The translations under genes were made by a program, and so were the position numbers. Under the pieces are notes generated by a model. The model had not been told where the DNA came from. It did no database searches and saw only the letters and a program-made list of their open reading frames with translations. 64,000 nt of DNA. Source: Chthonomonas sp. Lineage in GTDB: Bacteria > Armatimonadota > Fimbriimonadia > Fimbriimonadales > Fimbriimonadaceae. The DNA is taken from contig JAEURP010000009.1 in the NCBI GenBank assembly GCA_016788585.1, forward strand, positions 248,001 through 312,000, in the 5' to 3' direction. Below are positions 51,937 to 64,000 of the stretch, piece by piece (within the stretch, counting starts at the first letter, position 1; every line of letters begins with the position of its first letter).

Positions 51937-52419
51937 CTAGGACTGGATTCGTGCGTTCATTTCGCCTACTTTCGTCACAAGATCTTTGCGGTATGTCCGA
52001 AGCTTATTGGTGAGGGTCGCATCACTCGTTGCCAAAATTTGGATGGCGAGGAGACCCGCGTTGAGCGAATTTCCAATGGCAACTGTCGCCACCGGGATTC
52101 CGCCGGGCATTTGAAGAACGCTGAGAAGAGAATCCTTGCCTTCAAGTGCACGCGTATTCACGGGCACGCCAATGACAGGCAAAATCGTGTAGCTTGCGGT
52201 CATTCCCGGCAAGTGAGCGGCTCCGCCAGCGCCGGCAATGATGACCTTTAGTCCTCTGGATTCAGCGGTTTCGGCATACTCAGCCATTCGGTGGGGGGTT
52301 CGGTGTGCGCTCACGACCTCGACTTCATGGGGCACACCAAATTCGTTTAGCACGTCTATCGCCGCTTGCATCGTTGGCAAGTCGCTTTCACTGCCCATGA
52401 TAATGCCGACCAAAGCCAT
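51937..52419 (-). CDS. purE: N5-carboxyaminoimidazole ribonucleotide mutase
   Basis: 160 residues. [10 protein letters not shown] (8-17) and SAHRTPHRM (38-46) are the class I PurE signatures; [13 protein letters not shown] and [10 protein letters not shown] also fit. Converts N5-CAIR to CAIR in purine synthesis. Overlaps the upstream membrane-protein gene by one base. purC is 19 kb away; purK is not seen. Confidence 0.96.
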
Positions 52420-53480
52420 TAGATCTTTACTTTGAACAAGAGATACTCGATCAGCTTCATAAGGTAGGCCAAGATCATCACCATGATGAGAACCACAAGC
52501 AACTCTCGGAATGCGGCAAGATGCATGGGATCGGTAACCGACTTCTTCCCGCCTAAGGTTGCCTGACCAAGGAACCGGTCTGAAGTCATCAGAACGGACT
52601 GAAGGAGATTCTTCATCGGCTCACGCGCGACCAGCCAAATGCCGACCATCGCCGCAAGTGTCGCTGGCAGAGCGAGCTTGTATTTCTGACGCTGGTGCTC
52701 GTTATAGATGACGCACTGTCGGCAACGCTCCACCTTGATTTGCATCGGCAGTTTGTCGTTGTACGGAATGTACTTTGCTGCCGTAAGAGCGTCCTTCGGA
52801 ATTGTGAAGTTCCCGCTCATTGCATTAGCGATCACCTTTTCTTCGCACATGCACCCAACACGCTCCTTCCAACAGGTTCGCTTGGCATGGAAAATTGGGC
52901 ACTTGTCTCGAACAAACTTGCGGCAATATGGGAGCTGCCAGCACTTGCCAAGAAAGATATTCTGGCGGTCTGGTTCTTCCTTAACACCCTTTCCATACTT
53001 GAGTGTGTCGGCCTTTGAACCATGGGTTAGTCGGGTGCGAATCCGCCCAGTGACATCTACGACAGTCACCAAAATGGCAACAATCCCCATCATGCCGCCA
53101 ATTTGCTGAACCCCCGCCATCGAGCTCGAAGCAACAGCGGCGACCGAGTCTCCAACCATCATCGGCAGATACATCGGAGAGAAATACAGCCCTCCTGAGA
53201 CTAAGATTAGAATCACGCTCAGGATGTCTTCGCCCCACCAAACAATGGAGAGTCCAACTGCCAGTAGAACTGCGGCGACACCGCCCCAGAGTGAAAACGC
53301 GCCGATGAGTTGCTGCGCCTGAGCAACATTGGGTGGATTCTCGCGCGCAAAACTAAAGAAGTAATACAGCAAGAAACCGGTGCCAACCAACGTGCCGAGA
53401 CCGCCGATTCCGAGCATCAGACGAGCGACCTGTTCTTGTAGGCCGGATACGAGGTCTTCGACGTCCGTGTTTCTTTGCAT
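52419..53480 (-). CDS. Membrane protein with an eight-cysteine cytoplasmic insert
   Basis: 353 residues. About four N-terminal membrane segments (22-45, 57-80, 84-105, 122-142), a soluble region 145-265 and two C-terminal segments (268-286, 326-348). The soluble region holds Cys 180, 186, 194, 203, 210, 212, 253 and 256, in [24 protein letters not shown] and CRQC. The CW...CP...CW...C arrangement resembles two-CW-type Cys domains seen in signalling proteins. A metal or Fe-S cluster is plausible. Function unknown. Between purE and efp (4-nt gap to efp). Confidence 0.75.
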
Positions 53481-54072: not shown

Positions 54073-57000
54073 CTATGGCTTTGCCGGGGTGCTTTTGGCC
54101 AGCTCTAACGCCTGAATCTCCTTTTCAACAACTTCACGAATCCCCTTGGCAATCGCCTGTGGCTTGCCAACCGCACCTAAAACTTCTACTGTCTTCAACG
54201 TCGTGCGCTTCTGAGTCGCGTCGAACTTTTGGATAAAGACCTTGACCGTCACTTGGCGATTCTCGACCGTATACGTTCCGGCGATTCGGTACACGTTGGG
54301 GTGCTTTGCGACATCTGCCCATGCTTTGACTGCAGATGACTCGGCCATTACGGCACGAATTGCTTCCTCAAGGTTCTCTGGGTCTTCTTGGTCTTGCTCG
54401 AACGGCCCCAAAATGACGACGGGTACCGGAGGCTTAAGCCCAACCGCCCCTCGATCTTTCTCGTTGAGCACTCCAATATCAAAAGAGCTTCCATTTGCAG
54501 CTCGCTTAAACTGGGGTCGCTGTATTCCGGGAAGACCGACCTCGTTTTTGAGCGATTCCACGCGGTTTGCCGCATAGTTGAGCCATCGCTCGACATCCAC
54601 AAACAGTTCTCCTGATTGGCCAGGCCGCAATCCATCGGAATTAGCTTTGTCGATTGCTTCTAAGAGCGCGTACGTGAGCATCCCATGATCTACGTTTGGG
54701 CTTTCGTAGCTTAACTGGTCTGCAGCTGCACCCGCGAGCATCCAAGTTCCGGTGGCTTGCCGAATCGAGTCCCAAGCGCGTTGATAGTCTCCGCTCACGC
54801 TTCGTTCTAGGCCAACCACGTTTGAGGCGGCGGCTCCGGAGTGGCACGTATCCAAGATAACGATCTGTTTGTTCGCTGCAACCGCTTTGAGCCGGGTTTG
54901 CAGATCCTCGCCAGAAATACTGACCTGCCCAATATTGGCTTCGCTCAAGGAATTGGGGTCAGCTTCAGAAGTCAGGAAGAAATAGCCTGACTTACTGCCC
55001 AGCTTGTCCATCCCATGCCCGGCAAAGAAAACCATGACGATGTCGCTACTCGTCGCCTTTTTGCTGACCTCATCGAACCAACGGAGAATGTTGTTGCGGG
55101 TTGGCCTCGCTTGCCCCTCCTTTTCAGTTGTTGTCAGCTCCGTGATCTCGACCCGGTTAGCTAAGAAACCTCCGGCCACTCGTCGGATTGCCTTGGCCAA
55201 GTCGGTGGCATCGTTGGGCGGAGCTGCAAGGTCACGGGTGGTGCCAACGTAATCGCCGGCACCGACGCAGAGGGCATAGAGCTTTACATCAGGCGCCTGT
55301 AGGCCCTTAGGAATCCCCAAGTCAAGGGTCACCGGAAGAGAGGTCAATGTTCCGTCTGCATTTGATGCTCGCACCGATATAAGATTGCCCTTGCCTGGCT
55401 CTAAGCGGTTCTCTGGTAGCAAGAAGGGTTTGAGATCGTCCGCGTCGACACGAAAGTAGCCAGTTCCAATCTTTCGGAGTACTTCTTTGCCATTGAGGCT
55501 GACGATGACAGTGCCGATGCCGCCATTGTCTCGTTCTTCCAACTCGATATCGACCGCGCCGCGCTGGTTCGCCGACAGTTTAATCGTCGGATAGAGATGG
55601 AGAGATTTCAGGTCGGGCACGTCGCGCTTCGGCTCCTTATGGGTGCCAAGGAGCTTTTCCAGCAACCCGGGATCCCAAAAGTAGCCTTTGAATTGGCTCA
55701 CTTCAAGTGGCTCTAGTCCGCCTTCCCATTCATAAACATAGAGGGCCCCGCGAACTTCGTCGGGATCGTTCGCGTCGTAGCGGCCTTCGGTGTCCATAAC
55801 TAGCCAAGTGCCATCCCTCATTTGCACCATGCTTCCCAGTCGCTTAAAGGTCGTCGCATCCCAGATCACGATGCCATCAATGAGGTCAGCCGTTAATATC
55901 CGCTTCTCATCGGGCGAGAAGATTGCACACAGAGCTGTATCGTTGAGCTCGAAACGGTGAATGACTTTCTTGGTTGTCGTTTCAGTGATGTAGACCTTGT
56001 TGCCTTGCCATGATAGGAACTTATCCGCATTAGCAGAGAACCTCTGGTCGACATCTTCAACGATCGAGCTCGTAAAATTGTGCTGGAAGGACTGGCTGTC
56101 TTCGATCTTGATCGCGGCAACCTGGCTTCCTCGCCATATCATGAAGTGGGAGCCATCGCGACTAAATCTGATTTGTATCGGATATTGAGCGAAGGAGATA
56201 GCTTCGACCCCGTGGGGTGCCGTTGAAATTAGGCTTCCCGTCTGGGCATCCCACCAGGCTGCCTTTTCTCTTCCGGCTCCGGCGATGATGCGACCGTCGG
56301 GAGAAAACTTCAGTGCTCCGATCCCCAGGGATTCCGCTCCCTGTAGAGTGCACTTGATCTCACGGGAGTCGATATCCCAGACCGAAAAGGTCTTGGATTG
56401 CGAATATGGTCCGTGGACCGCAAAGCGCGCGTCTGGGCTAATCGCGCCAGTGAAACCTGGCTGCGCCTCCGGAAACTGGACATTCAGGACCTCCTTTTGT
56501 TGGCTAAAGTCGTAGCCAATAACAGTGCCATCGGCAAGGACCATCATGGCGAAGTCCGAGTTGGGGACAAACTCGCCTATCTGACCTTGGTCCGACTTCG
56601 TTTCAAAAAGCGACTTATTGCTCCACAAGTCAAATCCGATGAACTTGATCGGAGTCTGAAAGATATTGCCACCCTGATCAGCCAAGTTGTATCGCCCTGA
56701 GTCCGAAAACAGTTCGTAGGCGTAAGCATAAAGCGAGTCGTCCTGCCGTCGTTGCGGCAGTACGATGATTTTGCTTTCAGCCAAGTTGTCGATAAACAGT
56801 GATCCGGTCGAATTCCTGCCGATTGCCAGGAGCCGGTTGCTTCCCAAAAACCGGATGCGAGCCAGCGATGTGGTGGCACCGAGCGTCCCGCTCTTGACTC
56901 CGCCTGTTCGCAAGTCGTATTTGCGGAGTTCGCCGTTCATAAACCCGACCCAGCACTCGTCTTGGTTAGCGCCGAAGGCGGCGGCCGTAGGCATGTCGTC

Positions 57001-58026
57001 GCTCTTTAGATTCAGCGGTGTTTGTGCTCCACTGACAAGGTCCCACATCAAGACTCTCTCGTCGTCACCGTGGGTGCCGAGACGAGTTTTGGAACGGTTG
57101 AGTCGGAATTCGTCTACAGGTGCCGTATGGCCCTTGAGCCTTCTTTGCTCTTTGCCGGTAGTTGGATCCACCAAAACCATATCTCCGCCCCTCTCGCAGT
57201 AGAGAATCGAACTGTCGTTGGGCATAACGAACATGGCTCCTACGTAGGCTCGAAGCGCCTCGGTCCGATCGCCAATGGCATTAGGAAGCGTGAACTTCTC
57301 CTTGCCAGTAGTGGCGTCAAAAACGGTTGCCCCGTCGACCCAATTTGAAGCGACAACCAGTGTCCCTGACTCATTAATGTCGAGACTTCGAACTAGCGCC
57401 ATCTTTGGCGATGCGAGTTTGACTTTGTTGTCAGTCTCGGGTGTCCATACGACGGCGGTGTCACCGGAACCCATGACGAGTTTTTTCCCGTCGCCCGACC
57501 AATCTACCCAGCCGACATAGGTTTGCTCGGACTTCATCGCGTGTAGTCGCTTGCCAGTCGCCGCGTCAACGACATAGAGATCGCCATCGCTGCTACAGAC
57601 GGCGAATCGTCTTCCGTCTGGTGAAAACTGTGCATCGACAAAGAATTCTCCATCCCCGGCTGGAAACCTCGAAATCTGTCTCGCTCGTGTGGCGTCCCAA
57701 ATTCGGGTTTCTTCCATTCCCATGGTTAGCGCCTGCTTTCCATCGCGACTTAGCCTTACGGCAAGCACTCGGTCTTGCGCTCCTCCAAGGACGGCCAGAA
57801 GGCGAAGGGTCTTTCCGTCCCAAAGCTGGGGGGCGAATTGGCGCGAGTGCGTAAGGAGACGCGAGCCATCGGCAGACTCCTCAATATCCACCATGATGAA
57901 ACTGTTGGTCTGAGGAACCAAGCGTAGGCGTGGCTGATCCTGCTCCAGAGGCAAAGCGGCCTGCGTGCGAACACACAGGCCGACCATGAGGAGCGCTACT
58001 GAATACAGCCAAGCGCAGCGAATCAC
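54073..58026 (-). CDS. Exported WD40-repeat/caspase fusion protein
   Basis: 1317 residues. Signal peptide (1-23), then WD40-type repeats to about 735 (DGKQALTMGMEETRIWDATR; FSPDGRRFAVCSSDGDLYVVD; RLGTHGDDERVLMWDL), probably two propellers. A linker (GTWLVMDTEGRYD) and an Ig-like domain (about 820-905) lead to a caspase domain (913-1140) with catalytic His1004 in FFAGHGM and Cys1061 in DTCHSG. The last 110 residues form an extra domain of unknown type. Expected to be an active, periplasmic or surface C14 peptidase with a propeller for binding partners. Lies 10 nt after the second caspase gene. Confidence 0.87.
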   Translation of the reverse strand: MIRCAWLYSVALLMVGLCVRTQAALPLEQDQPRLRLVPQTNSFIMVDIEESADGSRLLTHSRQFAPQLWDGKTLRLLAVLGGAQDRVLAVRLSRDGKQALTMGMEETRIWDATRARQISRFPAGDGEFFVDAQFSPDGRRFAVCSSDGDLYVVDAATGKRLHAMKSEQTYVGWVDWSGDGKKLVMGSGDTAVVWTPETDNKVKLASPKMALVRSLDINESGTLVVASNWVDGATVFDATTGKEKFTLPNAIGDRTEALRAYVGAMFVMPNDSSILYCERGGDMVLVDPTTGKEQRRLKGHTAPVDEFRLNRSKTRLGTHGDDERVLMWDLVSGAQTPLNLKSDDMPTAAAFGANQDECWVGFMNGELRKYDLRTGGVKSGTLGATTSLARIRFLGSNRLLAIGRNSTGSLFIDNLAESKIIVLPQRRQDDSLYAYAYELFSDSGRYNLADQGGNIFQTPIKFIGFDLWSNKSLFETKSDQGQIGEFVPNSDFAMMVLADGTVIGYDFSQQKEVLNVQFPEAQPGFTGAISPDARFAVHGPYSQSKTFSVWDIDSREIKCTLQGAESLGIGALKFSPDGRIIAGAGREKAAWWDAQTGSLISTAPHGVEAISFAQYPIQIRFSRDGSHFMIWRGSQVAAIKIEDSQSFQHNFTSSIVEDVDQRFSANADKFLSWQGNKVYITETTTKKVIHRFELNDTALCAIFSPDEKRILTADLIDGIVIWDATTFKRLGSMVQMRDGTWLVMDTEGRYDANDPDEVRGALYVYEWEGGLEPLEVSQFKGYFWDPGLLEKLLGTHKEPKRDVPDLKSLHLYPTIKLSANQRGAVDIELEERDNGGIGTVIVSLNGKEVLRKIGTGYFRVDADDLKPFLLPENRLEPGKGNLISVRASNADGTLTSLPVTLDLGIPKGLQAPDVKLYALCVGAGDYVGTTRDLAAPPNDATDLAKAIRRVAGGFLANRVEITELTTTEKEGQARPTRNNILRWFDEVSKKATSSDIVMVFFAGHGMDKLGSKSGYFFLTSEADPNSLSEANIGQVSISGEDLQTRLKAVAANKQIVILDTCHSGAAASNVVGLERSVSGDYQRAWDSIRQATGTWMLAGAAADQLSYESPNVDHGMLTYALLEAIDKANSDGLRPGQSGELFVDVERWLNYAANRVESLKNEVGLPGIQRPQFKRAANGSSFDIGVLNEKDRGAVGLKPPVPVVILGPFEQDQEDPENLEEAIRAVMAESSAVKAWADVAKHPNVYRIAGTYTVENRQVTVKVFIQKFDATQKRTTLKTVEVLGAVGKPQAIAKGIREVVEKEIQALELAKSTPAKP

Positions 58027-58035
58027 GTTTACTCC

Positions 58036-58986
58036 TTAATTACTCAAGAAAACCGGCTGGTTGGCGCGGGTCGAGTTGCTGAATTCGGTGTTCGGGCCCT
58101 GCTTGAACCCCTTTTCCGTGGCAAACTCATTAATGGCATCGACCAGGTCCTTCGCTGGCGACTTTGGTTCTGCCTCAAGCACGGCAGTTAAAAGAAGTGT
58201 AAACAAACCATGGGCTGGGCTATCAGCGCCGGCAGCGCCTAAGTCGACCGATGGTTCGGTTTCCTTACTCGCATAGATCCAGGCCGCGGTACCGGTGGGA
58301 TTGAAGGTCGCCCGAGTTTTAATGGAATCGATCGAGGGGCGCCAGTTATTCATCATCGCCCGGCTCATGGATTTGTAATTTGCGCCGGTCTGCTTCTTGC
58401 CCAAGAATTTTTCGCGAGCTGAGCGACCATTAACCATGAATTCGCGGGACATGCCTCCGCTAAAGCAACTGTCAAAAACGAAGGTTACGTTTACGCCATT
58501 TGCGGTCAGAATGCCCTTCACTTCGTCGAACAAGTCATCGATAACCAGCGTGCCGTCGGCGAGTACGAGAGTTTCGTCGATCTTATCGCCGGGTGTTGGC
58601 TCCTTGGCCTTATCATCTTCGAGCTGTGCGCCATGACCACTATAATAGAAGACCACGTTGTCACCAGCTTTCGCGGTGGTCGCGAGCCACTTGATGTTCT
58701 CTAGAAAGTTCTTGCCCGTGGCGTCCTTATCGAAGGATTTCCGGATGTTGCTCGAGTTATAGCCGTACTTGAGATTTAGCAGGCTCATGATCGAATTGCA
58801 GTCATTGATTGGGCCAGCTAAGTCGTTGTCGACGACATTTCCCTTTTCGTCCTTCAGCGGATTGCCCTGGGCATCCAGAGGCGTAGGATAGTCTTTGATG
58901 CCGACCAGATAGGCATAAGATTCTGCGTTGGCGGCCAACGGTGCCGCGGCAACTGCGATAGCGATAAGCGTCTGAAGTACCTTCAT
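58036..58986 (-). CDS. Exported caspase-family (metacaspase-like) peptidase
   Basis: 316 residues with a signal peptide (1-21: MKVLQTLIAIAVAAAPLAANA). The C14 core is complete: SGHGA with His118 and DSCFSGG with Cys174, where DxCxSG is the metacaspase/orthocaspase signature. These cut after Arg or Lys and often depend on calcium; the acidic D172 fits. Typical TGG-AGHG ribosome-binding site GGAG is present (GTGGAGAAATAAAATG). First gene of a unit with the WD40-caspase. Probably secreted and possibly self-processed. Confidence 0.9.
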   Translation of the reverse strand: MKVLQTLIAIAVAAAPLAANAESYAYLVGIKDYPTPLDAQGNPLKDEKGNVVDNDLAGPINDCNSIMSLLNLKYGYNSSNIRKSFDKDATGKNFLENIKWLATTAKAGDNVVFYYSGHGAQLEDDKAKEPTPGDKIDETLVLADGTLVIDDLFDEVKGILTANGVNVTFVFDSCFSGGMSREFMVNGRSAREKFLGKKQTGANYKSMSRAMMNNWRPSIDSIKTRATFNPTGTAAWIYASKETEPSVDLGAAGADSPAHGLFTLLLTAVLEAEPKSPAKDLVDAINEFATEKGFKQGPNTEFSNSTRANQPVFLSN

Positions 58987-60068: not shown

Positions 60069-63000
60069 GTGCGTCCCATCGTCCGAATTGTCCGAATGCT
60101 CGCCGGTCTTGGCGCGTGGACGATGTGGGTTCCGCCGATCCTGCTTGCGAGTTGGTCGGTGATGTACCTTTGGGATGTCTTTGAGTACGCAACAGCGCCG
60201 GGTGTTCCCGTTGCATTTGAGTATGAGGGCCCCCGTGGCATGGTTCGGGTGAGGGCTAAGTCCTATGCAATCGACGTCACCAGCCGCCGCGCGATTGCCC
60301 TTGAGCTGGAGGTCCGCTCTCCAGCGAATACGCGAGTGATTTATGTCGACCGCGCCATCATCGAACAAGACAAACTGAATGTGACTAATGTCCAAGCCCA
60401 CGGGGTGCATGCGGTGCTGGAACGCATGCCGAATGGTGAATTTACCTTTCATGATGTTATCCCAAAGGCACCCGAGACGAAAGGACCCGAATCCTCGGTT
60501 AGAGTCGAGGCCCATAACGTCAAGCTGTCCTACCTTGACCGCACTCGCCAACTCGTTACCCTAGGCGGAAGGGCTGGTCAGGTCGTGGCCAATGGACGCG
60601 GCTCTGGTTGGCTAGTGAACGGAACATTTGAGTTTAAAGGAGTGGGTGCCGTTCCGACCCAGCTTCTCATTGGCCCCGATAATCTGTTTGAAGTAGACCT
60701 TGGACTTCAGAACACTGAGGCTGCCCCGCTAGTACCGCTAATCAATCGCTATCTTGCCCAGGATGAGCAATTGCCATTTAATGTGCAGACCGCACGTTTT
60801 GATGGCAAGCTCCAACTCGTAGGTGCGGCCGGAGCCCTAATGAAAGCTTATGGAAACCTAAAGGTTCGAGCGAGCCAGTATTCCGCGGCCGGCTTTCAGG
60901 GAAACAAACTACTTAGCAGTTTTAGACTCTATGGAGAGCGCGCTAGCGGCAGTTTTGATACTCAGGGCGGTGGCTTAGAGATCAATGCGGATCGTTTTGC
61001 TTTTGATTGGTCAAAGGGAGCAAAACTCTATGCCGAGGGATCGGCCCGACTAAAAAGCCTCGCACAATTGCCCAAGGCTTGGCGACAGGGAATCCCGGCA
61101 TCCACTGCCGTTTCGGGTGGCCGTTTTGAAGGAAATGCGGGGATCCAGGGTGACCGCTGGCAGGTGAACGGCAAGCTCGCTTCGACCACCGTCGTCGCGG
61201 AGGGTGAAAGGGTTTCGAATGTGCGTGTCAGCATTGCGGCGTCCGAACGAAGTGCCGTGGGCAAGATCGAGTCTGCGACTTGGAGCGGAGTGCCCTTGCG
61301 AGGGGCCTTCGATGTTTCGGCAAAGAGCGGGGCGGTCAATGCCTTCATTCAAAGCGATTCGGTGAACTTGGGGCCGCTTGCCCGGCGATACAACCTCCCT
61401 CTAACCGGCTCGGGAGATCTGCGCGCGGTCATTTCATCGCTCAAAGGGAGGCCCCAAATCTGGATTTCCAGCGCTGGCAGGGCGCGTTACCGCCTCGATA
61501 ATGGTCAGCCCTTTTCCGGAGACTATGAAGCCCAGCTCAGTGGGAACCTGACACGCCTTGACGTAAACCAAGCAGTCTTGAGTGGAAAGCAGGGCACCTT
61601 GGCAGCGACCGGAAAGATCGAGCCCAATCGTAAATCACTGGACATTGCGGTGTTTGGAGGTCAGATTCAAGCGAGCGCCTTTGCGCCCGAATCAAAGGGG
61701 GAACTTTATCTCTCGGGCCGGGTTAAGGGAACGTTTGCCCAACCCCAGTTCACCAGTGTCGTCGATGTCCATGACCTTATTATCGGAGACTCAAAGGTCC
61801 CGTGGATTCAACTTCGAGCGAGCGGCAATCCGAATCTCATTAAGTTCGAGCAGGTTCAGGCCCAATACGGCTTTAGCAGCCTGGTGGGAAATGTCACCTA
61901 TCAACCTAGATCAGGCAAACTGAGCGGAACGTTCAGTTCTCCGGCGATCCAATTGGCGGAATTTGGTCAAGGAAATGCCGCTGGGGTAATCCGCTTGCTC
62001 GACGGAAAAGTGAGCGGAACACTCAAAAGCCCTAATGTGAGCGCCAAGTTGGAGGGAGGAACAATCTCCTATTCTGGGGCGACCCTTGCCGGACTTTCCG
62101 CCAGCATCTCGGCAAGCAACGACCTCATCAAAATTTTGAACGGCAATGTCGCAGTTGCCGATGGTGACAAGACTGGTTCGCTTCAGTTTAGCGGCCTTTA
62201 TAGCCCGAGCGGCAAATCGGGCGAAGTCGAGGCAGCATGGTCAAGCCTCCCGCTTCGCCCATTGGCCCAGTTCGACGAGCGCTTCGCCGTCCAGGGTGAA
62301 ACGACGGGCACGGCAAAATTTGCCTTGAACGACAAGGGACCAGTTTCTGGATCGGCAAGTGGTTCGCTGTCCGAAGTGGCTCTGAATGGTGAGCTAGTGG
62401 GATCCGGTCCATTCGAGGCCAAGGTTGAAAAGGGCCAGTGGGTCGCCAGCGGCTCAATCGGATCTCTCGATCAGTATGCGTCCGTAGACGAGCTAAAGTC
62501 AGACCAAAAGGGCAACTTGACCGGTCGCCTCACCTCTTATAAGATGAGGGCAGAGGCGTTGATTCGCCTGACTCGCGTTCAATGGAAGGAGACACCAGAA
62601 GACATCCAACGATTTGTAGCCGGGCTCACGGGAGAAGTGGACGGCACGTTAGCATTTTCAAACATTAACAATGAGTTCAGGCTGCAAACCGACAACCTGA
62701 CCGTGAGCGATTTGAATGTCGAAGGCCGGTCGGTCGGGACCCTTACCGCCAGTGTTTTTCGCGAGGGTCCTGCTTGGAGTATTGCCAGGGCCGAACTCGC
62801 GAATGGTGAAGAGCGGATTAGCGGCAAAGGGCGGATCTTCGACGACGGAAACTTGTCCTTTGAAGGAGAAGCCAATAAGGTTAGCCTTTCGTGGCTCAAT
62901 GCGATCAACCCCGATCTTGCCGTGGTTCCGGCTACGGCCGACGCCTCATTTATCTTGAGTGGCAAGTCCGATAACCCGAACCTCTTGGCTTCACTAAAAG

Positions 63001-64000
63001 TTGAAGGTGTACAGCGGGGAGACAAAGAAGAAACCTCCGTTCCACCAAGCTTGAATATCGATCGAATCGAGCTGAAGGACAAGATGATCACGGCAGGCGG
63101 CGCGTTTCAGGCCCAAGGCTTTACTGGCTCAGTTTCCTTCCATGGTCCATTAGCCACACTCATGCCTGCGCCGAAAGAAGGCCGAAATCCCGGCGAGTCC
63201 TTTGCACTGGAAGCCAATGTTGCCGAGCGCCAAATCGACGAATTCAAAGACCTGCTGACCTTCTTGGACTTTGAAAGGAGCTCAGGAAAGTTGGGCGGTA
63301 AGGTCTTGGCGACGGGGCATGTCGATGACGTAAAGCTGTCTGGCGGTCTGTCATTTGGCGGGGAGCCCGGGCGCCTGGCTTTCGCAGGCTATCGGACCGA
63401 ACTAGAGAACCCACTCCTGTCATTGGCCTTGAATGGTGACAGGCTGGAGTTTAACGCGACGGCAACCGGGAACCAGGGCGGCACATTGAGTGCGTCCATG
63501 AGTATCCCGAGCAAGTTGCCAAGCGGCTCTTTCGACGAGTGGCTTGCCAGTACCCCGATCCAAGGAGAAATTCGACTCAACAACCTCAAGGTCAATGAAG
63601 GGGATGCTACGAAAGCCAATCAGATCACGAGTTCATTGTCCACGATTTCAAGTGATGGCAATTCACCGGAGCCCATCCGTATTAGCGGAAATCTAAGTTC
63701 TCCGCTTATAGCTGGCAAGGTGCAAGTTGCTGGGGGAACTGGTGATTTACCAACTTTTGCCCAGGCAGAGACCGCAGCCGCTCCCCCGGTCGATCCGCGA
63801 TTTGACCTTGAATTTGCGACAGCAAACCCGCTGAGCATTCGGACAATCTCTGCCAACCTCATCGCGAATGCATCAGGTTCGATGAAGGGGAGCCTCACCC
63901 GTCCTCAAGCCGAGGGAACGTTCTTTGTAGATGGGGGCACCCTTCGTTTGCCGAACGCCAGGATCAAGCTCGATGACGGAGGTCTGGTGAGCTTCTCGAT
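60069..64000 (+). CDS. AsmA/TamB-like giant envelope protein (N-terminal part)
   Basis: One uninterrupted reading frame of about 1310 codons, running off the window end. GTG at 60069 (an ATG at 60096 is possible). N-terminal membrane anchor (GLGAWTMWVPPILLASWSVMYLW, about 13-35), then many repeating short beta strands with the spacing SGxL/GxF, including DDGGLVSF near the end, as in AsmA/TamB/YdbH bridge proteins that move lipids between inner and outer membranes. Repeats such as LSGRVKGTFAQPQF and VSGTLKSPNVSAKLEGG recur. Which subfamily cannot be told without the C-terminal DUF490-type end. Follows lipA after 32 nt. Confidence 0.85.
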   Translation, partial: MRPIVRIVRMLAGLGAWTMWVPPILLASWSVMYLWDVFEYATAPGVPVAFEYEGPRGMVRVRAKSYAIDVTSRRAIALELEVRSPANTRVIYVDRAIIEQDKLNVTNVQAHGVHAVLERMPNGEFTFHDVIPKAPETKGPESSVRVEAHNVKLSYLDRTRQLVTLGGRAGQVVANGRGSGWLVNGTFEFKGVGAVPTQLLIGPDNLFEVDLGLQNTEAAPLVPLINRYLAQDEQLPFNVQTARFDGKLQLVGAAGALMKAYGNLKVRASQYSAAGFQGNKLLSSFRLYGERASGSFDTQGGGLEINADRFAFDWSKGAKLYAEGSARLKSLAQLPKAWRQGIPASTAVSGGRFEGNAGIQGDRWQVNGKLASTTVVAEGERVSNVRVSIAASERSAVGKIESATWSGVPLRGAFDVSAKSGAVNAFIQSDSVNLGPLARRYNLPLTGSGDLRAVISSLKGRPQIWISSAGRARYRLDNGQPFSGDYEAQLSGNLTRLDVNQAVLSGKQGTLAATGKIEPNRKSLDIAVFGGQIQASAFAPESKGELYLSGRVKGTFAQPQFTSVVDVHDLIIGDSKVPWIQLRASGNPNLIKFEQVQAQYGFSSLVGNVTYQPRSGKLSGTFSSPAIQLAEFGQGNAAGVIRLLDGKVSGTLKSPNVSAKLEGGTISYSGATLAGLSASISASNDLIKILNGNVAVADGDKTGSLQFSGLYSPSGKSGEVEAAWSSLPLRPLAQFDERFAVQGETTGTAKFALNDKGPVSGSASGSLSEVALNGELVGSGPFEAKVEKGQWVASGSIGSLDQYASVDELKSDQKGNLTGRLTSYKMRAEALIRLTRVQWKETPEDIQRFVAGLTGEVDGTLAFSNINNEFRLQTDNLTVSDLNVEGRSVGTLTASVFREGPAWSIARAELANGEERISGKGRIFDDGNLSFEGEANKVSLSWLNAINPDLAVVPATADASFILSGKSDNPNLLASLKVEGVQRGDKEETSVPPSLNIDRIELKDKMITAGGAFQAQGFTGSVSFHGPLATLMPAPKEGRNPGESFALEANVAERQIDEFKDLLTFLDFERSSGKLGGKVLATGHVDDVKLSGGLSFGGEPGRLAFAGYRTELENPLLSLALNGDRLEFNATATGNQGGTLSASMSIPSKLPSGSFDEWLASTPIQGEIRLNNLKVNEGDATKANQITSSLSTISSDGNSPEPIRISGNLSSPLIAGKVQVAGGTGDLPTFAQAETAAAPPVDPRFDLEFATANPLSIRTISANLIANASGSMKGSLTRPQAEGTFFVDGGTLRLPNARIKLDDGGLVSFS

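Follow-up and report, generated by a model that had tools for sequence, protein, structure and literature searches.

Two adjacent genes for predicted exported caspases, a small metacaspase-like protein and a WD40-caspase with a TolB-N-like tail, form a conserved unit in Armatimonadota

The role of bacterial caspase homologues is a long-standing question. In a window of 64,000 nucleotides from a Chthonomonas sp. contig (JAEURP010000009.1), two caspase genes of different type lie side by side on the minus strand, and the locus raises the question of whether the two proteases work together and, if so, which acts on which. On the coding strand the small caspase gene comes first (58036-58986, ATG start, 316 aa, metacaspase-like p20 and p10) and is followed by the large WD40-caspase gene (54073-58026, GTG start, 1317 aa). 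The spacing calculated from the ORF coordinates is 9 nt, not the 10 nt of the preliminary description. A Shine-Dalgarno-like AAGGAG (58032-58037, minus strand) overlaps the TAA stop codon of the small gene and lies 5 nt upstream of the GTG of the large one. Pfam Peptidase_C14 (PF00656) matched the small protein with 76 bits and the large protein with 64.5 bits, both above the gathering score of 21.4, and Pfam WD40-type propeller matches span the N-terminal half of the large protein. Judged by the sequence criteria tested, both proteins are members of family C14, and the large one, with a WD40 propeller and a C14 domain in one chain, has the WD40-caspase (orthocaspase) architecture. Such fusions had previously been tied to large-genome bacteria; the fusion was confirmed, but the host genome is small (2.38 Mb, 95% complete; nearest named relatives Fimbriimonadaceae, phylum Armatimonadota). 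An Rfam search of the window gave no match, and promoter-like sites were no more frequent than expected by chance.

Two further genes in the window were recorded. A 353-aa protein, probably membrane-embedded, is encoded between efp and purE (52419-53480, minus strand); it is 78% identical in genome G004 and had no Pfam or NCBIfam match. Downstream of lipA, a plus-strand reading frame (60069-63998, continuing past the window) encodes a very long product that is conserved in the genus, reaches 1512 aa in G004 and G001, and had no Pfam match.

Export signals were called by eye and from hydropathy. The signal peptide of the small caspase (58921-58986, minus strand) is predicted to be cleaved after residue 22, between ANA and ES, a site that is kept in the family alignment. 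Nearly all of the 21 small proteins have a signal-peptidase-like A-x-A site directly before the E/D-T-Y start of the core, and the mature small protein would begin at the catalytic core, right after this site. For the large protein (57958-58026, minus strand), cleavage is predicted after residue 23, between TQA and AL, and a hydrophobic N-terminal stretch was found in all large proteins. The host is probably diderm because an Omp85/BamA-family protein is encoded in its genome. Both caspases are predicted from these signals to be exported and periplasmic.

The small-family profile aligned with residues 67-339 of yeast metacaspase-1 (Yca1), covering p20 and p10, at an E-value of 1.7e-35. The p10 region that follows p20 agrees with a C14B metacaspase. 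The codons of the catalytic His118 (58633-58635, minus strand) and of Cys174 in the motif D172-S-C174 (58465-58467, minus strand) specify residues that are invariant in 21 of 21 relatives. The S1 pocket of TbMCA2 contains Asp95, Ser156 and Asp211 (PMC4357240). By motif position these correspond to D62, S116 and D172 of the small protein, again invariant in all 21, and with pocket acids as in TbMCA2 the small protein should cleave after Arg or Lys. The strict four-Asp calcium site was taken as D173, D189, D190 and D220 of TbMCA2. The Asp pair D150/D151 is present in P0001, and only 12 of the 21 relatives have that pair. At the fourth ligand position (TbMCA2 D220), Arg or Lys is found in 19/21 (Arg in 18/21), which makes calcium alone an unlikely switch of the small caspase. 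A proline-rich N-terminal prodomain, another type I criterion, is absent from the small protein, the signal peptide running directly into p20. The label of a strict calcium-regulated type I metacaspase was dropped since the calcium site is eroded.

A basic and variable linker was recognised between p20 and p10 of the small caspase from composition and conservation (residues 183-236; 58279-58440, minus strand). It contains 8-16 Lys/Arg and 1-7 Asp/Glu in each of 21 relatives, and both its sequence and its length vary (the aligned segment spans 47-71 residues across the 21 small proteins). Linker identity, at 65%, is the lowest in the mature small protein (81-84% elsewhere). By its composition, this linker is of the sort that an Arg/Lys-cutting enzyme could cleave, in cis or in trans.

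The large protein begins, after its signal peptide, with a beta-propeller region delimited by the WD40-type matches (residues 26-735; 55822-57951, minus strand), estimated to be long enough for two 7-8 bladed propellers. It is followed by a conserved hinge (D-x-x-G-R-Y-D-A) and a predicted Ig-like beta-sandwich (residues 736-913; 55288-55821, minus strand), placed by conservation and the AlphaFold2 model, and by the caspase domain (residues 914-1187; 54466-55287, minus strand), placed by VIA-align and Pfam. The C-terminal half was modelled with AlphaFold2 using 46 homologues (pLDDT 87.9), and the model contains, in order, a beta-sandwich, a complete caspase fold and a small alpha/beta domain. 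The caspase domain was superposed on metacaspase-4 with a VIA-align Z of 20.0 and an rmsd of 3.2 over 227 residues. The catalytic residues His1004 (55015-55017, minus strand) and Cys1061, in the motif D1059-T-C1061 (54844-54846, minus strand), are invariant in 46/46, as are the predicted S1-pocket acids D939 and D1059; cleavage after Arg or Lys is therefore predicted for the large caspase domain too. In the preliminary description the genes had been read as an exported pair with intact dyads in a two-gene unit and Arg/Lys cleavage had been proposed for testing; the first reading held, with the invariant dyads of both families, and the second is supported, as a prediction, by the S1-pocket acids of both. 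The p20-p10 loop of the large protein (residues 1064-1074, pLDDT under 50) is the only disordered loop of its caspase domain. Beside it lies Arg1075 (54802-54804, minus strand), which is Arg or Lys in 44/46 large proteins and, from conservation and the model, is a candidate processing site at which cleavage may occur.

Averaged over orthologues, identity was 62% for the caspase domain, 55% for hinge plus beta-sandwich and 45% for the tail; the two halves of the propeller region reached only 33% and 22%. By sequence comparison, the putative recognition part, the propellers, is the fastest-changing part of the large protein; the cause may be nothing more than repeat-domain drift, as opposed to selection for new ligands. 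Between the host genome (G000) and G004 synonymous sites were saturated, and non-synonymous change per site was far below synonymous change.

The last 110 residues of the large protein had been described as lacking an identified domain. Profile searches of this tail against Pfam and the PDB gave nothing firm, and only a structure model helped. A fold search with the whole C-terminal half listed the caspase domain only, and the tail was therefore modelled alone (AlphaFold2 pLDDT 89.6). The best Foldseek match of this model was the N-terminal domain of TolB (4.1e-5). VIA-align gave Z of 10-11.5 against TolB, CT253, XCC0632 and CsgG, with about 102-111 of 132 residues aligned, and 8.9-9.7 against PelC and PqiC. 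The modelled tail (about residues 1199-1307; 54106-54432, minus strand) thus falls in the TolB-N/CsgG/PelC/PqiC fold group, which settles its identity at fold level, as far as the model goes. Most of the six matched proteins are periplasmic or outer-membrane-associated, in agreement with the export signal of the large protein, and a shared TolB-like fold is no proof of envelope docking or of function. TolB_N (PF04052) was absent among the 25 Pfam families listed for 38 homologous tails, and no TolB_N match was found anywhere in the host genome. The tail of the window's own protein matched only LutB_C, at 0.015, and one homologous tail matched FlgO at 2.8e-4. By alignment, the TolB-N-like tail is also present in homologues from Bacteroidota, Gemmataceae and Neptunomonas.

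When 100 related genomes were first searched, the genomes with strong orthologues of the small protein were also those with strong orthologues of the large one. Family profiles were then run over 291 Armatimonadota genomes, with a large orthologue defined as scoring over 620 bits. Large orthologues were found in 22 of the 291, and every one of these 22 also has a small orthologue; G008 has a small orthologue with only a divergent large one. In 21 of 22 genomes the two genes are adjacent and codirectional, the small one leading. G030 retains both, each on its own contig, and a contig break interrupts the large gene of G003. Adjacency in relatives, on which the preliminary description had staked its proposal, was thus borne out. 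It is mainly members of the window's genus that have flanking genes in common (lipA upstream in four of them, efp downstream in two), and no conserved flanking gene was found outside it. Since the flanks change outside the genus and the pair stays, the two genes are regarded as a conserved unit; chance neighbours are ruled out by the same data. Comparison of flanks across the relatives' loci revealed no inhibitor, toxin or third conserved gene linked to the pair.

Beyond what the species marker SecA accounts for, the distances of the small and large genes correlate with each other (partial Mantel 0.47, p 0.0001). In both gene trees, G003 and G021 are displaced against SecA in the same way, which suggests that the pair was transferred or replaced as a unit. 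The pair of G003 (loci L075 and L074), a member of the window's genus, clusters with the g30/G021 lineage in both trees, and a replacement of the whole pair is likely there from the tree positions. Co-inheritance of adjacent genes can also follow from linkage. Strong terminator-like hairpins were found between the genes in G009 (-25.2 kcal/mol, z -5.3) and G013 (-20.5, z -3.5), at loci L077 and L071, and would leave more of the small product. Prophage or mobile-element cargo was rejected: no relatives were found in 2.9 million viral contigs, and plasmids yielded nothing closer than distant C14 proteins.

Beyond the family, this C-terminal half is shared by large-type proteins of Gemmataceae, Neptunomonas, Bacteroidota and others, encoded singly or in tandem arrays of large genes, so that in those groups the large protein can work without the small one. 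In Saprospiraceae and other Bacteroidota (L120, L124, L125, L127), large WD40-type caspase genes form tandem groups of two or three. Pairs of a metacaspase-type and a WD40-caspase gene were found in Acidobacteriia (L123), Alphaproteobacteria (L154, L160) and a planctomycete (L151), and the pairing theme therefore recurs. At L154:1285-6014 (Rhodospirillales) a WD40-caspase gene overlaps that of a second caspase ending in a DUF4384-like region, another two-type pairing. A third caspase of the host genome, G000 (L089:9362-10681, contig C23; 439 aa), has only a partial (p20) C14 match and adjoins trmD, rplS and a signal peptidase gene.

In known caspase systems, recognition or docking modules mark the initiator, and a cleavable linker without a recognition module marks the executioner. 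Here the putative modules for recognition and docking are on the large protein, and the small one has the cleavable-looking linker but no recognition module, which favours the large protein as sensor and initiator and the small one as a cleavage-activated executioner in a periplasmic two-tier system. The larger amount of small product expected from the terminator-like hairpins is part of the same case. This order, the reverse of that first proposed, is held tentatively, with a probability of about 0.4. Both proteases would be exported by Sec into the periplasm of a diderm host. The propellers of the large protein would bind a ligand or substrate, the TolB-N-like domain at its C-terminus would dock the protein at the envelope, and the caspase domain would cleave after Arg or Lys. 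Activation of the small protein would follow when its p20-p10 linker is cut, either by the large enzyme or autocatalytically, and the activated executioner would then amplify periplasmic proteolysis. The activation step and its direction are inferred, and the small enzyme might just as well cut its own basic linker in cis, which counts against the order with the large protein as initiator. The fullest form of the proposal, a genuine periplasmic cascade of an envelope-docked propeller initiator and a dedicated small executioner, inherited as a unit and serving as a switch for envelope death or remodelling, is rather doubtful.

The two enzymes may instead be independent periplasmic proteases of Arg/Lys specificity that are expressed together but form no cascade, and that serve scavenging, quality control or turnover of the envelope. 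The complete active sites of both proteins and the large-type proteins found alone or in tandem arrays agree with this, as does the functional diversity of operon neighbours of bacterial caspases (PMC3501461). The strict co-occurrence (22/22), the retention of both genes where they are separated in G030, and a patchy, unit-wise distribution unlike that of housekeeping proteases argue against it, and it is considered somewhat unlikely. In the order of the preliminary description, the small enzyme may activate the large one; on this reading the small metacaspase would mature itself and then activate the large protein, for example by cutting at Arg1075, while the propeller brings the large protein to substrates. 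The conservation of Arg1075 at the border of the sole disordered loop would suit such a step, and the small gene is translated first, perhaps in excess. The large caspase domain, however, is predicted to adopt its full fold without any cleavage, and the cleavable-looking linker sits on the small protein. Arg1075 is also kept where the search found no small partner nearby, as in Bacteroidota, and its conservation is thus uninformative about action of the small enzyme on it. This order is not supported, or at best unsettled, the opposite order being at least as likely, and it is judged improbable. A phage-defence or programmed-death module akin to cytoplasmic caspase-based conflict systems (EACC1 and similar) is very improbable, since both proteins have export signals, no effector, NTPase or effector-associated domain gene lies beside the pair, the flanks are housekeeping genes (lipA, efp, purE) and none of 2.9 million viral contigs held a relative, even though a generic PADLOC caspase model matches (E 1.7e-14 and 3.7e-13), the EACC1-associated caspase model NF047832 matches both proteins below its cut-off of 140 bits (26.6 and 73 bits), and the inheritance is patchy and unit-wise with poorly conserved propellers.

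The pair is compact and repeatedly conserved, and it combines two distinct caspase types with intact active sites and a predicted specificity and compartment. Whether bacterial caspases form cascades thereby becomes testable with two purified proteins. Operons with more than one metacaspase were described for four bacterial groups in a survey that also found WD40 domains in 10.9% of prokaryotic metacaspases (Asplund-Samuelsson et al., 2012; PMC3501461). The preliminary description had called a paired exported set unusual, a judgement that holds in part only, since multi-metacaspase operons and WD40-metacaspases were already known. Searches of the literature on caspases with Armatimonadetes, Fimbriimonadaceae or TolB returned no relevant paper. 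As far as the literature searched shows, the ingredients are singly known, and no published description of a conserved pair of exported caspases, inherited together and with such a tail, is apparent. The prokaryotic WD40 metacaspases or orthocaspases (PMC3501461; Klemencic and Funk, PMC5756287) likewise have a C14 p20 fused to WD40 and occur in multi-caspase operons. They are a loose set, whereas here a fixed two-gene unit was found, both members with export signals, which differs further by its complete p10, by the Ig-like part and by the TolB-N-like domain at the C-terminus; Armatimonadota are a phylum not mentioned in the main text of the 2012 survey (PMC3501461). Like the type I metacaspases (yeast Yca1, T. 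brucei MCA2), with which it aligns over p20 and p10, the small protein keeps the S1-pocket Asp and the SGH/DSC motifs; it differs from them in having a signal peptide, no proline-rich prodomain and only part of the calcium-site aspartates.

Among metazoan initiator and executioner caspases, the WD40 protein Apaf-1 provides a propeller-bearing activator, and the small executioner has a cleavable linker. The comparison concerns the way of working only, and no homology of pathway is claimed; the pair described here differs in its predicted P1 specificity, is predicted to be exported, has the propeller inside the protease and has no CARD or NTPase. Like the large protein, TolB, the exported periplasmic propeller protein of the Tol-Pal system, unites a beta-propeller and an alpha/beta domain with the fold of the tail in a single chain. 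The large protein differs from TolB in its reversed domain order, in the lack of a TolB_N sequence match, in its WD40-type propellers and in the protease domain between the two parts. With the TolB-N-like tail present, by alignment, in homologues from Bacteroidota, Gemmataceae and Neptunomonas as well, a broad class of WD40-caspases would be placed in the envelope.
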